Shown: positions 15,486 to 53,090 of the stretch, in pieces
How the letters are laid out: the number at the start of each line of letters is the position of its first letter
Position numbering within the stretch: position 1 is the first letter of the stretch
From: Streptomyces sp. SID486
GTDB lineage: Bacteria; Actinomycetota; Actinomycetes; Streptomycetales; Streptomycetaceae
Length of the DNA: 64,000 nt
Assembly (NCBI RefSeq): GCF_009865385.1
Contig: NZ_WWJT01000693.1
Coordinates: 1-64,000 of the forward strand
Direction of reading: 5' to 3'
The notes under the pieces: generated by a model
What the model was told of the DNA's origin: nothing
Seen by the model: the letters and a program-made list of their open reading frames with translations, nothing else
Databases searched by the model: none
Made by a program: the position numbers and the translations under genes

Positions 15486-16739
15486 ATGCAGCGCATCGCC
15501 TTCCTCAGGTCCGCCGACATCCGGCGCGCCGACCCTTACATCCACGGCATCGCCCCCGCCCTGGCGCGGCTCGGCGCCGAGGCCCGCCTCTTCCACACCC
15601 ACGCCCGTGACTGCGGCCCGGAGGACTTCCCCGGGACCAGCGAACGGCTCGACCCCGGCGCGACCCCGGACGAGTTCGTCACGCGCGTACGGGCCTGGGG
15701 GGCCGACGCGGCCGTGGCGATCTCCCTGCCGGACGAACACGCCCTGCGTGACGCCGTGGTCAAGACGAAGCTGGAAGCGAACGGCATCCGCACGGTCATG
15801 TCCCCGCTCGCCGCCACGCGCCTCCTGTGCGACAAATGGGAGACCAAGCGCCTCCTGGAGGCACACGGCATCGCCACCCCGCCCGCCGTCCTCGTCGACA
15901 GCGACCTCCTCAACGACCGGGCGCTGCCCGTCCCGGCCTACCCGGACGCCGTCCGCCTGGCCGCCCAGGACATCGGATTCCCCCTCATGGCCAAGCCCCT
16001 GTGGGACTCCACCAGCATGGGCATCGAGTTCATCCCGGACCCCGCCGCCCTCGACCGCTACCTGGCGGCACGCCCGGCGGCACACGCCGTGCTGGAGAAG
16101 TGCCTCACCGGAGAGCTCCTTTCGGTCGACATCGTCGGGGCCGGCGGCCACTACACCGTCATGCCTGTCATCCGGACCGGCACCGCGGGCGGCCCTCCCG
16201 CCTTCACCTTCGACGACCTGCGCTACGCCCGGCCGGTCCCGGACGACGGCTTCGCCCCCACCGCGCGCCGCCTGGTGGACCTGTGCACGGCGCTCGGGGT
16301 CGAGGGATCGGTCAACGTCGACATGATCCACGCCGACGGCGTCCACCACGTCCTGGAGATCAACCCCCGCATCGGCGGAGCCACGACCCTGTCCATCGCC
16401 GCCGGCGGACTCAACACCTTCACCGCACTGCTCGACATCCTGGACGGCACCTGGCCGACCAGGACCAGTGCTCCGGCCGAACGGTTCGCGGTCGAGTGCC
16501 TCACCGCCAACCCCACCCCGGCACTGCTCGCCGAACTCCGCACCCGTGTCGACCTCGTCACCTGCCACGACCTGATCATCGACGGACGCGACCACGGCGG
16601 CATCCTGACGTTCACCGTGAGCCCCGGAGACGAACAGCGGGTGGTCAAGGAACTCGCCGAGTGGTGCGCGCAGACCGGCTTCATCCCCGCCCCCATGCTC
16701 GACAAGATCCGTCGCCTGCTGACCCCCACGGACCGGTGA
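15486..16739 (+). CDS. ATP-grasp ligase, second of a pair
   Basis: The 417-residue protein has ATP-grasp features distinct from its neighbour: KWETKRLLEAHGI at the start of the ATP-binding region, the lysine strand FPLMAKPLWDSTSMGIEF, LEKCLTGELLSVDIV, and the metal site HVLEINPRIGG near residue 297. The overall style resembles carbamoyl-phosphate synthase- or PylC-like ligases. It is probably a second peptide or amide bond-forming enzyme acting in the same pathway. It follows the first ligase by 1 base and its TGA overlaps the next gene's GTG (GTGA), giving tight coupling. There is little similarity by eye between the two ligases, so this is not a recent duplication. Confidence 0.82.
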   Translation: MQRIAFLRSADIRRADPYIHGIAPALARLGAEARLFHTHARDCGPEDFPGTSERLDPGATPDEFVTRVRAWGADAAVAISLPDEHALRDAVVKTKLEANGIRTVMSPLAATRLLCDKWETKRLLEAHGIATPPAVLVDSDLLNDRALPVPAYPDAVRLAAQDIGFPLMAKPLWDSTSMGIEFIPDPAALDRYLAARPAAHAVLEKCLTGELLSVDIVGAGGHYTVMPVIRTGTAGGPPAFTFDDLRYARPVPDDGFAPTARRLVDLCTALGVEGSVNVDMIHADGVHHVLEINPRIGGATTLSIAAGGLNTFTALLDILDGTWPTRTSAPAERFAVECLTANPTPALLAELRTRVDLVTCHDLIIDGRDHGGILTFTVSPGDEQRVVKELAEWCAQTGFIPAPMLDKIRRLLTPTDR

Positions 16740-18058
16740 GCATCCCCACCAGCGGGCGACCGCCGGGTCCCGGTGCCCCGCCGGGCCGTGGCCGTCCCCG
16801 CGGGCTACGGGCCAGAGCCGGTCTGCCGGCGCTCGCCGGAGCGGGCCGTTTCGTCGCCGCACACGCGGTGGACAGCCTCGGCACCGGCCTCGTCTTCGCC
16901 TTCACCGTCGTCTACTTCACCCACGCCACCCACCTCTCCCTCGCGGAGGTCGGCGCGGCGCTCACCGTCGGCAACCTCCTCGCGCTGCCCGCCCCCGCGC
17001 TGGGCGGAGTCCTCATGGACCGCCACGGCCCCAAGGCGGTCGTCGTCACCGCCAACCTCGTCTGCGCCGCCGGTTTCACGGCGTTCCTCCTCGTCCGCCC
17101 CGCGTGGCAGGTCAGCCTCGCCTACTGCGTCGTCCAGGCCGGCATCAACCTGTACTGGACCGCTGCCCGCAGCCTGGTGCCACTGGCCGGGGTGCCCGGT
17201 GAGGAGCGTCTGTGGTTCGGCTTCATCTCCTCTCTGCGCAACCTGGGCATCGGCGCGGGCGCGGCCGTATCGGCCGTCACCACGGCCCTGTTCGGCCCGG
17301 ACAGCCTCTACGTCCTCGTCGCGGCGAACGCCGGCACGTTCCTGTGCGCCGCCGCGCTCTTCGCGACCTGGCGGCCCGCCCACGCGCCCGGCGTGCCCGG
17401 CACCTCGCGTCGCCCGGCGTCCGACGGCACGGCGGCCCGGCTGCGGGGGAGCTGGCGGGCGGTCCTCACGGACGGCCGCTATCTGCTGCTCGTCGGGGCC
17501 AACCTGGCCTTCGTCCTCGCACAGATGGTCCCGCCCGTCCTGCTCGCCGTGTACGTCACCGAGACCCTGCACGCGGGCGAGTGGATCCCCGGTGCCCTCC
17601 TCGTCGTCAACACGGCCGTCGTCGCCGTGGTCACCCCCGCGGTCACCCGCCGGGCGGCACGCCACCGCCCGCAACGCGTGATCGCCGGCGGCTTCCTCGT
17701 CGGCGCCGGCGCCTTCGTCCTGTTCGCCGCGCCCCTCGCGTGGCGGGAGGGCCCCGGCTGGACCGTGGCCGGAGTCCTGACGGCGGCGATGCTCCTGTTC
17801 ACCCTCTCCGAGATCCTCAGCTCACCCGCGCTCAACGAACTCTCGGTCGCCTGCGCGCCCGCCGAGGGCGACGGCCGCCACCAGGCCGCCTTCCAGCTGT
17901 CCTGGTCCGTCGGAGGCGCCGCCGCCCCGGTCGTCCTCACCACGCTCCTGAGCCGCCGGCCCGTCCTGCCCTGGCTGCTGCTCGCGGTCCTCAGCATGCT
18001 CGCCGTCCCCGCCGCCCGCGCCCTCGCCCCACCGGACCGGGAGGAACCCCCGTCGTGA
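16736..18058 (+). CDS. MFS exporter within the ATP-grasp operon
   Basis: The product of about 440 residues starts at a GTG overlapping the previous stop (GTGA). After a basic, proline-rich leader of about 40 residues come about 12 hydrophobic helices with the MFS loop motif MDRHGPKAV after helix 2. Its position inside the ligase operon suggests export of the pathway product or self-protection. The C terminus APPDREEPPS is encoded by the first, partial copy of the 38-bp repeat that continues into the next gene's leader. Confidence 0.85.
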   Translation: MSIPTSGRPPGPGAPPGRGRPRGLRARAGLPALAGAGRFVAAHAVDSLGTGLVFAFTVVYFTHATHLSLAEVGAALTVGNLLALPAPALGGVLMDRHGPKAVVVTANLVCAAGFTAFLLVRPAWQVSLAYCVVQAGINLYWTAARSLVPLAGVPGEERLWFGFISSLRNLGIGAGAAVSAVTTALFGPDSLYVLVAANAGTFLCAAALFATWRPAHAPGVPGTSRRPASDGTAARLRGSWRAVLTDGRYLLLVGANLAFVLAQMVPPVLLAVYVTETLHAGEWIPGALLVVNTAVVAVVTPAVTRRAARHRPQRVIAGGFLVGAGAFVLFAAPLAWREGPGWTVAGVLTAAMLLFTLSEILSSPALNELSVACAPAEGDGRHQAAFQLSWSVGGAAAPVVLTTLLSRRPVLPWLLLAVLSMLAVPAARALAPPDREEPPS

Positions 18059-18172
18059 CCACCGCTCCTCCGGACCGGGAGGAACCCCTGTCGTGACCAC
18101 CGCCCCGCTGAATCGGGAGGAACCCCCGTCGTGACCAGCGCCTTACCGGACCGGGAGGAACCCCCGTCGTGA
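18032..18172 (+). repeat. 38-bp tandem repeat carrying SD + GTGA start/stop in each unit
   Basis: A unit of exactly 38 bases is present as three full copies (18055-18092, 18093-18130, 18131-18168), preceded by a partial copy that encodes the MFS C terminus. Each unit contains GGGAGGAACCCC and ends in GTCGTGA, where TGA stops one frame and GTG starts the next. Three 13-codon frames result: 18055-18096 (VTTAPPDREEPLS), 18093-18134 (VTTAPLNREEPPS) and 18131-18172 (VTSALPDREEPPS). They lie in three different reading frames, each overlapping the next by 4 bases. The last overlaps the start of the acyltransferase at 18169 and contains a TTA codon. The peptides may have no function beyond passing ribosomes on. 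Confidence 0.9.
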
Positions 18173-19194
18173 TCCTCACCATCCTCGACGACCTGGCGGA
18201 GGTGTCCGCGGCCGAGTGGGACGTCCTCGCCGCGTCCACCGGTCTCTACCTCTCCCATCAATGGCTCGCCGCCCAGCAGCACGACCCCACCGCCCGGGTC
18301 CGTTACGCCCTGGTCCACGACGGCGGCCACCTGGTTGCCGCCGCGCCGCTGTACCTGATCGACACCGAACCCAACGCCCTTTACCGCGTCCACGACCTCG
18401 TACCCGGCCGCACTCCGGCCCGGACCCTGCTCGCGGGAGGCCGCCGCGGCTACCTCAACGCGCCCCTCCTGCACCCCCGGCTCACCCCCGACAGGCGGCG
18501 CGAGGCACTGAACTCCCTGCTGACCGCGGCCGCTTCGCTCGCCGAAGCCCACCGGGCACAGTCCTGGTGGCTGTACGTCACCGACTCGGCGGCCGCCGAA
18601 CTCGCCGACGCCTGCGGAACCGAACCCGTGCGGCTGGCCGACGACGCCCGCATCCCCCTGCCCGGCGGCACCTTCGACGACTATCTGGCGGCGCTGCCGT
18701 CCAAACGCCGGGTCGCCGTCCGCCGCGAACGACGGGCGTTCGCCGAGGCCGGTTACGAGGTGCGCACCCTCCGGCTGTCCGAGTGCGCCGACACCGCGGG
18801 CGCGCTGCTCGCCCGGCTCCAGGAGCGGTACGGCCACAGCGCCGACCCGGACGCCATGGCCCGGCTGCTGCGCGACCAGGCCGACGGCATGGCCGACGGC
18901 GGAGTCGTCCTCGCCGCGTACGCCGACGGCCGTATGGCCGGTTTCAGCCTCTACTACCACCACGCCGACACGCTCTGGCTCCGCGCCACCGGCTACGACT
19001 ACGACCGGCTGCGCGGGGCCCACGAGTACTTCAACCTCGTCTGCTACCTCCCCATCGAGGACGCCTACGCACGCGGCGCCACCGCCCTGCACCTGGGCAT
19101 GGACTCCCTGCGCGCGAAGACCCTGCGAGGCGCGGTCACCGCGCCGCTCTGGGCGATCGAGGGGGCACCGCCGCCGGGGGGACGCTCCGGCTGA
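18169..19194 (+). CDS. FemAB/BioF2-like GNAT acyltransferase
   Basis: The 341-residue protein starts at the fourth GTG of the 38-bp repeat. It has the double-GNAT layout of the 'peptidogalycan'/BioF2-like family: LSHQWLAAQ near residue 30, LPSKRRVAVRRERRAF (about 180-195), the acetyl-CoA-fold strand MAGFSLYYHHADTLWLRATGYDY and GATALHLGMDSLRAKTLRG at the end. Relatives transfer aminoacyl groups from aminoacyl-tRNA or acyl groups from CoA to amino groups. In this operon it could add an aminoacyl unit to the ATP-grasp product or give resistance by modifying cell wall precursors. Exact chemistry is unknown. Confidence 0.78.
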   Translation: MILTILDDLAEVSAAEWDVLAASTGLYLSHQWLAAQQHDPTARVRYALVHDGGHLVAAAPLYLIDTEPNALYRVHDLVPGRTPARTLLAGGRRGYLNAPLLHPRLTPDRRREALNSLLTAAASLAEAHRAQSWWLYVTDSAAAELADACGTEPVRLADDARIPLPGGTFDDYLAALPSKRRVAVRRERRAFAEAGYEVRTLRLSECADTAGALLARLQERYGHSADPDAMARLLRDQADGMADGGVVLAAYADGRMAGFSLYYHHADTLWLRATGYDYDRLRGAHEYFNLVCYLPIEDAYARGATALHLGMDSLRAKTLRGAVTAPLWAIEGAPPPGGRSG

Positions 19195-20804: not shown

Positions 20805-20945
20805 CGGGCCGAAGGGGGGAGACCCCCGGGCGGGAGGGCTCACGGGCATCCCTTCGCTCGGGGAGACCCCCGGGGCGGAGGGCTCACGGCACCCCTTCGC
20901 TCGGGGAGAGCCCGGGGCGGAGGGCTCACGGGCACCCCTCCGCTC
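20805..20945. repeat. About 41-base tandem repeats after the FAD oxidoreductase
   Basis: Two to three imperfect copies of a unit of about 41 bases (CCTTCGCTCGGGGAGACCCC followed by GGGGCGGAGGGCTCACGG) fill most of the gap between convergent genes. The CTCGGGGAG and CCCCGGGG parts could pair into hairpins. No gene is visible here. Confidence 0.7.
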
Positions 20946-21000
20946 CGGGCCGGCCGTCGATCACCCGCCCTGGTCCCCGTCCCGCGTCACGCGGTGGTGC

Positions 21001-41319: not shown

Positions 41320-41349
41320 CGGCTTCGGGTGAGACCCGGATCCTGTCCC

Positions 41350-41447
41350 GCACCGGCGCACGGGACCGGCAGGTCCGGCCGCACCGGCGCACGGGACCGG
41401 CAGGGCCGGCCGCACCGGCGCACGGGACCGGCAGGGCCGGCCGCACC
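41350..41447. repeat. 31-bp tandem repeat, three copies
   Basis: A 31-base unit (GCACCGGCGCACGGGACCGG plus CAGGGCCGGCC) occurs three times without gap (41350-41380, 41381-41411, 41412-41442), followed by a partial copy. The only difference is a T/G change in the first. It lies upstream of the chitinase promoter. No coding function is apparent between 41320 and 41720. Confidence 0.9.
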
Positions 41448-41720
41448 GAGCGACCGCGTCCGTCGGCACATGGGCCGCGGCCGTCACGCCGTGCCCCCGG
41501 AAAGGGGCTGGCATCGGCTTCGTCCGGTGGACTACGGTGTTCAGCCATGACCACCGGGACGGCATCACGCCACACACGGATCGGTGACCCGGTGCCCCTC
41601 TGAGCGCCGTACGGGCCGATGCCGGCCCGCCGTTGGACCCGTTGACCTGCGCTGCTCCGCGGGCTCCCCCTCCGTCGTGTTGAACACAGGATCGACACCT
41701 CAACCACGACAGGAGAGTTC

Positions 41721-44029: not shown

Positions 44030-44155
44030 CCTCCTGACGACGCGACGCCGGCGCACACCCCACCGCGCCGGCCCCCCGACGGCGCGACGTCGGCGCCCAC
44101 GCCACAGTGCCGCCCCCCGACGGCACGACGTCGGCACGCACGCCACAGTGCGGGC
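44030..44155. repeat. About 41-base tandem repeat after the ligase gene
   Basis: Three imperfect copies of a unit of 41-42 bases (CCCGACGGCGCGACGTCGGC followed by GCCCACGCCACAGTGCCGCC) fill the gap downstream of the ligase. The first, most divergent copy begins CCTGACGAC, similar to the ligase stop region CCCTGACGA. No gene is visible here. Confidence 0.75.
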
Positions 44156-44235
44156 CCCTGGAGGTCGACAGCAGACCGGTGGACGCAACCCGTGAAGACA
44201 GCTACCCCGACAGGTCACGACACCCGGAGAACTGG

Positions 44236-52825: not shown

Positions 52826-52992
52826 GACAGTCCCCTTCCGAAGCGCCCCGTCCAACGGCGGCTCGGGGATACTCGCAGTTGGAGTGCACCGCAAGGCAAG
52901 AGCCGACGGCCGTGCCCTGCATGAGCGCACGTCCACCGTCGGGAGTGGACACCTCGAGCGGTTCTGCACCGTGACAGCACTCCGGGACGGCC

Positions 52993-53090
52993 GCTGTCCT
53001 TCTGTGCGCCTCCCTGGATGAAGCCGGTGTCCTTCGGTGCGCCTCCTGGGATGAGGCCGGTGTCTTTCGGTGCGCCTCACGGGATGAAGG
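52993..53090. repeat. About 33-base tandem repeat, three copies
   Basis: A unit of about 33 bases (GTGTCCTTCGGTGCGCCTCC plus TGGGATGAGGCCG) occurs nearly three times between the aldo/keto reductase and the next minus-strand gene end. No gene was recognised from 52826 to 53110 other than this array. Confidence 0.8.

Follow-up and report, generated by a model that had tools for sequence, protein, structure and literature searches.

The 64,000-nucleotide stretch of Streptomyces sp. SID486 DNA analysed here (the window) carries, between an MFS transporter gene and a FemAB-like acyltransferase gene, a real and apparently lineage-specific tandem expansion of a probably coupled stop-start junction, one of a recurrent set. 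Other gene pairs, unrelated to this one, carry similar chains in related bacteria, and their copies are nearly always spaced so that hand-over from one junction to the next can take place. We consider it probable that such arrays reflect tandem duplication of a coupled junction together with selection against copies that would break termination-reinitiation.

The gene order at the locus is an ATP-grasp ligase (L-amino-acid ligase C-terminal domain), an ATP-grasp protein, the MFS transporter, the FemAB-like acyltransferase and an FAD-binding protein; compared with the curated NCBIfam models, none of the operon proteins scored above cut-off. We infer the start of the MFS gene, GTG 16736, from its GTGA overlap with the preceding ATP-grasp gene. 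This junction (16736-16739) is likewise a stop-start overlap, so the operon has stop-start junctions in series. At the MFS-acyltransferase junction, TRF detected a tandem array at 18025-18172 with a period of 38, 3.9 copies and zero indels. GTGA occurs at 18055, 18093, 18131 and 18169, with 38 bp between neighbours; full copies begin at the first three of these GTGs, and the last is the acyltransferase start. GGAGG is located 10 nt 5' of every array GTG (at 18040, 18078, 18116 and 18154). Because 38 equals 13 x 3 - 1, each TGA falls inside the next GTGA, and the MFS stop, which follows a C-terminal end reading ...APPDREEPPS, is separated from the acyltransferase by three nested 13-codon mini-frames in three different reading frames (Table 1). 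The array holds one TTA, codon 5 of mini-frame 3. The sequence-only reading had described a 38-bp cassette with a ribosome-binding site and a GTGA in each unit, three nested 13-codon frames and a single TTA, and we confirmed all of this. Its copy count needed amending: the 38-bp repeat is there, but the original unit is the MFS gene's own tail (18025-18054), and the three copies added to it bring the junctions to four. Further tandem repeats with units of 31-43 bp occur in the window at 20816-20949, directly 3' of the stop of the FAD-binding gene, and at 41348-41448, 44036-44158 and 52990-53089.

Table 1. The MFS-acyltransferase junction in window coordinates. In the mini-frame translations GTG is read as M.
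Feature	Coordinates	Strand	Basis
MFS transporter gene, TGA 18056-18058 inside first GTGA	16736..18058	+	Pfam PF07690, E 2.2e-24
Original unit: MFS 3' end, GGAGG 18040-18044, GTGA 18055-18058	18025..18058	+	TRF start 18025; single-copy counterpart in relatives
Mini-frame 1, GTG + 12 codons + TGA, MTTAPPDREEPLS	18055..18096	+	Sequence reading
Mini-frame 2, MTTAPLNREEPPS	18093..18134	+	Sequence reading
Mini-frame 3, MTSALPDREEPPS, TTA 18143-18145	18131..18172	+	Sequence reading
Last GGAGG, 10 nt ahead of acyltransferase GTG	18154..18158	+	Sequence reading
Acyltransferase gene (FemAB-like/GNAT families), GTG in fourth GTGA	18169..19194	+	Pfam PF04339, E 2.7e-16; PF13480, E 1.9e-9; start aligns with relatives

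Pairwise comparison of the three array copies showed 6, 6 and 7 differences in 38 positions. Of the nine variable columns, eight fall within columns 5-21; the other 21 columns, where the SD and GTGA are located, contain just one (Fisher P 0.005). Recent copying could likewise explain why the SD part is conserved. Allowing at most three mismatches, the 23-base core of the unit has just four sites in the whole 8.5-Mb genome, all in the array, and by this genome-wide uniqueness the array is beyond chance expectation. An assembly artefact might be suspected in an 809-contig draft with 6.4% contamination. It is nevertheless highly improbable, as the copies differ at 6-7 of 38 positions, the array lies within a contig of 71,657 bases and similar arrays are present in other assemblies. 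A mobile MIRU-like element could also have inserted at the start codon, since MIRUs, in the available parts of PMC12548453, carry a -4 nt coupled ORF and appear to insert at start codons. Here, however, the unit consists of the 3' end of the host gene itself and its core is found nowhere else in the genome, which makes such an insertion extremely improbable; MIRU-type mobility of the unit was rejected, as the genome holds no second copy.

To trace the ancestry of the junction, acyltransferase relatives were collected from two overlapping draws of Streptomyces genomes, 295 and 392 in size, and from a species-level contig collection, each species being represented by one genome. Among the fetched loci, each of the 16 other MFS-acyltransferase pairs has one NTGA overlap without an array; examples come from S. 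filipinensis, Streptomyces sp. Ru71, sp. IMTB 2501 and S. spinosisporus. In these 16 distinct relatives the upstream MFS stop lies exactly at +1 of the acyltransferase start. Their NTGA begins with G in 6 cases, with A in 4 and with T in 6, over acyltransferase identities of 48-81%, so that the overlap keeps its geometry even though the start codon varies. Four acyltransferase orthologs, whose upstream gene is dissimilar to this MFS, show no overlap. Since the relatives are all single-copy, the array looks like a local expansion specific to the lineage of the window. The proposal that the 3' end of the MFS gene was copied together with the start region is thus borne out, and copy number does differ between species, four junctions here against one in the relatives. 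The sequence-only interpretation is supported in part: the relay architecture, the copying origin and a difference in copy number, here between species, hold; dependence on development through the TTA and tuning of expression by copy number, both of which it raised, are conjectural.

These data suggest the following course of events. The MFS and acyltransferase genes would be an old pair with a four-base stop-start overlap, very probably translationally coupled. In the lineage of the window, a 38-bp piece comprising the MFS tail, the ribosome-binding site and the overlap would have duplicated in tandem, adding three copies. As 38 is 3 x 13 - 1, a ribosome could pass from junction to junction: on ending MFS it would restart at GTGA 18055, make 13 residues and stop at the next GTGA, and three such relay rounds of 13 codons would bring it to the acyltransferase at 18169. 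We infer that the mini-frames are indeed used by ribosomes and that the peptides they encode are unimportant. In E. coli and Haloferax volcanii, ribosomes have been shown to restart where stop and start codons overlap, and both the efficiency and the SD dependence of restart vary by gene pair, according to the portions available of PMC6728339 and PMC12548453. Expansions of this kind would persist mainly if the added length keeps the relay or extends the upstream gene in frame, that is, selection would filter for coupling.

To find similar arrays, we searched 199 Streptomyces genomes for pairs of SD-RTGA modules that share the same SD spacing, using the reversed pattern as control; a second set comprised 198 phylum-wide genomes, 8 of them Streptomyces. 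The spacing-7 pattern matched 79 times in Streptomyces, compared with 9 control matches, and 20 times in the phylum-wide set, compared with none. All 79 were examined further, and their raw distances are 2 mod 3 in 52, 0 in 18 and 1 in 9. Spacing 8 gave 81 matches against 19 controls, of which 25 listed matches, picked by eye as tandem-like, were typed. For spacing 6 we excluded the MTRISCGGRS family, took the listed matches and 20 multi-match genomes, and typed 41, leaving 16 with dissimilar spacers unfetched. Among the typed matches, before the gene filter, raw distances are 0 mod 3 in 24 of 41 at spacing 6 and 18 of 25 at spacing 8, a preference that weighs against the selection-filter reading; many of these matches are repeats inside reading frames. 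At spacing 9, 43 of 48 were examined, and at spacings 8 and 9 few arrays survived the gene filter. A looser pattern at spacing 10, that of the window itself, gave 46 matches against 20 controls in the Streptomyces set, and among the 43 sites examined, on both strands, the window is the only tandem relay between gene-like ORFs.

Altogether the candidates comprised 246 distinct arrays. Unit identity was at least 0.6 in 110 of them; in 41 of the 110 both flanking ORFs are gene-like by their codon-position GC, and 32 of the 41 have an exact NTGA start; most counted arrays come from the spacing-7 pattern, whereas the GGAGG-GTG spacing of the window is 10 nt. The 32 divide into 24 relays, the window included, and 8 in-frame arrays. 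The nine gene-flanked arrays without an exact NTGA are five relays (L247, L301, L266, L196 and L205) and four read-through arrays (L193, L074, L230 and L058). Where the stop precedes the start, in L301 (-4), L266 (-7) and L205 (-2), a shifted rule is obeyed, in which period plus offset equals 0 mod 3. Units between gene-like ORFs measure 38 bp in L211 (genome G015; five steps, one of 39 bp) and in L242, from another family of the phylum, 35 bp in L092, L099 and L210, and 41 bp in L225 and L197. By Pfam, the flanks of nine arrays encode AtuA/carboxyltransferase (twice), branched-chain amino acid permeases, an ABC ATPase/permease, the FAD and molybdopterin subunits of a molybdopterin dehydrogenase, a KduI/IolB protein with a thiamine-pyrophosphate enzyme, and a histidine kinase/response regulator; 3 of the 18 flanking proteins have no Pfam match or generic AAA only.

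If coupling imposes no constraint, duplication periods should spread evenly over the three residues mod 3. With the window excluded and unit identity of at least 0.6, which about 4% of random unit pairs reach, the 31 arrays are 23 relay, 8 in-frame and 0 off-frame (P 1.3e-5 for the relay excess and 5.7e-6 for the lack of off-frame arrays). At identity of at least 0.7, reached by about 0.5% of random pairs, the numbers are 12, 6 and 0 (P 0.007 and 0.0009, respectively). The arrays are partly non-independent, L092 and L188 being orthologous, and dropping one orthologous duplicate at this threshold leaves 11, 6 and 0 (P 0.013 and 0.0013). Relay against in-frame alone, 12:6 in this stricter set, is not significant (P 0.24), so that the avoidance of off-frame additions is the firmer result; relays probably also outnumber in-frame extensions, though this conclusion is the weaker one. 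Among the candidates for off-frame arrays, L263, L218 and L224 were rejected since their upstream gene fails the codon-position GC test, and L266 and L301 proved to be relays with another stop-start offset. The frame bias at other gene pairs, with relay mostly kept and off-frame avoided, strengthens the relay reading that had been proposed for the window.

The array of G015 sits between AtuA and carboxyltransferase. Of 91 Streptomyces genomes searched, 86 have a close ortholog of this carboxyltransferase and five do not, and in the 86 we read the junction upstream of it. The upstream gene was recognised via codon-position GC alone, and Pfam AtuA was confirmed just in G015 and G075. At this second junction, 74 of the 86 are direct NTGA overlaps (GTGA 53, ATGA 19, TTGA 2), 8 contain between one and four mini-frames, each 10 to 73 codons long, none is in-frame and one (G023) is off-frame. 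The script left three unclassified, G040 and G060, which look direct by eye, and G088. The relay is thus preserved in 8 of the 9 lengthened cases (P 0.001). Since G015, G075 and G076 were already in the pattern scans, five of these eight are fresh cases.

These counts bear on the idea that the array is a neutral slippage product, whose mini-frames have no effect while the acyltransferase starts on its own from GGAGG 18154. This idea agrees with the presence of a GGAGG ahead of every GTG, with the sufficiency of one copy in the relatives, and with the expectation that one tandem period in three is 2 mod 3 by chance. RNA structure is also as it would have it, the region 18010-18230 folding no better than its shuffles (z +1.23). 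The total lack of off-frame cases in the 31 other junction arrays is, however, hard to obtain without selection on translation, and 8 of the 9 lengthened second junctions are relays. We therefore regard a neutral product as unlikely.

Alternatively, the array might act as an adaptive dial, in which the restart efficiencies of the units would multiply and copy number, varying between strains, would set the ratio of acyltransferase to MFS. The number of junctions does differ between species, both here and at the second junction, and in M. tuberculosis longer tandem repeats upstream of fpg1 accompany a higher mRNA level, as given in the accessible part of PMC2734929. That study, in the same part, measured mRNA rather than translation, and all 16 relatives manage without an array, which together make a dial quite unlikely.

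The remaining alternative concerns the TTA codon. Decoding of TTA depends on the bldA tRNA, and in a bldA switch the TTA of mini-frame 3 would stall ribosomes until this rare leucyl tRNA is made, so that the acyltransferase would follow development. In-frame TTA is confined to mini-frame 3; it is absent from the five surrounding genes, the acyltransferase itself included. A bldA effect is possible from this one TTA codon. As an account of the array the switch is very improbable: it involves a single codon in one strain, the last SD lies 3' of the TTA and could act alone, and there is no TTA in the 425 codons of 32 mini-frames from the 23 other relay arrays, nor in the 1,081 codons of 77 distinct SD-bearing mini-frames. 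Duplication of a coupled junction, filtered by selection for coupling, is thus the reading we retain.

Several other short frames were seen in the scans. In L233, at about 1438-1560 (genome G122), five serial MNEEAS frames in 17-bp units sharing ATGA precede a 359-codon ORF. On the minus strand of L091 (genome G172), from about 1472, there are seven serial mini-frames in 20-bp and 59-bp units (VTPEERE, VRLKERSDVRGAGV...). Both loci passed a looser gene filter, failed the tighter limits and were left out of the counts. In L119, at 1501-1544, a conserved 10-codon SD-bearing MTRISCGGRS frame terminates within the ATGA at which a response regulator with a LuxR-type domain begins. MTRISCGGRS-like matches occur in many of the Streptomyces genomes searched and make up most listed spacing-6 matches, and 193 of the 199 genomes have some match at that spacing. 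In three genomes (L088, L184 and L186) a gene of ~225 codons begins near 1500 where a conserved 14-codon VTVFLPV... frame, not part of a tandem repeat, ends. In L073 and L081, VTDEFDR... mini-frames that resemble each other, 18 and 21 codons long, end, also near 1500, at the starts of ORFs of 223 and 213 codons.

The importance of these arrays rests mainly on the frame bias, which is sequence evidence for selection on coupling itself at many gene pairs. If ribosomes traverse the serial mini-frames, the arrays are natural experiments on repeated termination-reinitiation, and they offer natural constructs, with a single step or several, in which restart efficiency could be measured. Annotation usually reports genes much longer than these mini-frames, which makes this class of array easy to overlook. 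More speculatively, and as a doubtful though conceivable extension, duplication of coupled junctions might be a recurrent, evolvable form of control in actinobacteria, in which units of length 3n+2 would be gained or lost, each as one hand-over step for the ribosome, their number would be a gear for the ratio of two proteins from the same operon, and rare codons in the mini-frames could make it conditional.

Tandem relay arrays of this kind were not found described in the open-access literature searched, where MIRUs come nearest. A leader-peptide attenuator calls for a stable RNA structure around the short frame, which the fold given above does not show. MIRUs resemble the array in being short intergenic repeats with a -4 nt coupled internal ORF, a feature that the array shares by sequence alone, and some MIRU loci vary in copy number (available parts of PMC12548453 and PMC2734929). 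According to the same parts, MIRUs are dispersed and apparently mobile, whereas the array unit is a local 38-bp copy of the host junction. When 17900-18400 served as query in a similarity search, the 40 candidates scored, out of 398, yielded the locus itself and two weak matches that lie outside the repeat, and the unit is slightly below the MIRU size of 40-100 bp in the accessible text of PMC2734929. Gene pairs coupled at -4 nt share with the array the common NTGA of stop and start, the upstream SD and the expected restart, as far as the available portions of PMC6728339, PMC12548453 and PMC10666635 describe them. All four array junctions are GTGA, and, unlike such pairs, the array repeats the overlap four times in tandem with 13-codon frames between. 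In engineered mini-cistron leaders (for example PMC6348689, in the part available) a short frame likewise delivers ribosomes to the following gene; they were built for expression and apparently carry no tandem repeat between natural genes. The MTRISCGGRS mini-frame ahead of a Streptomyces response regulator is also an SD-bearing short frame ending in a shared ATGA, and differs from the array in being single, conserved in sequence and free of tandem repetition.
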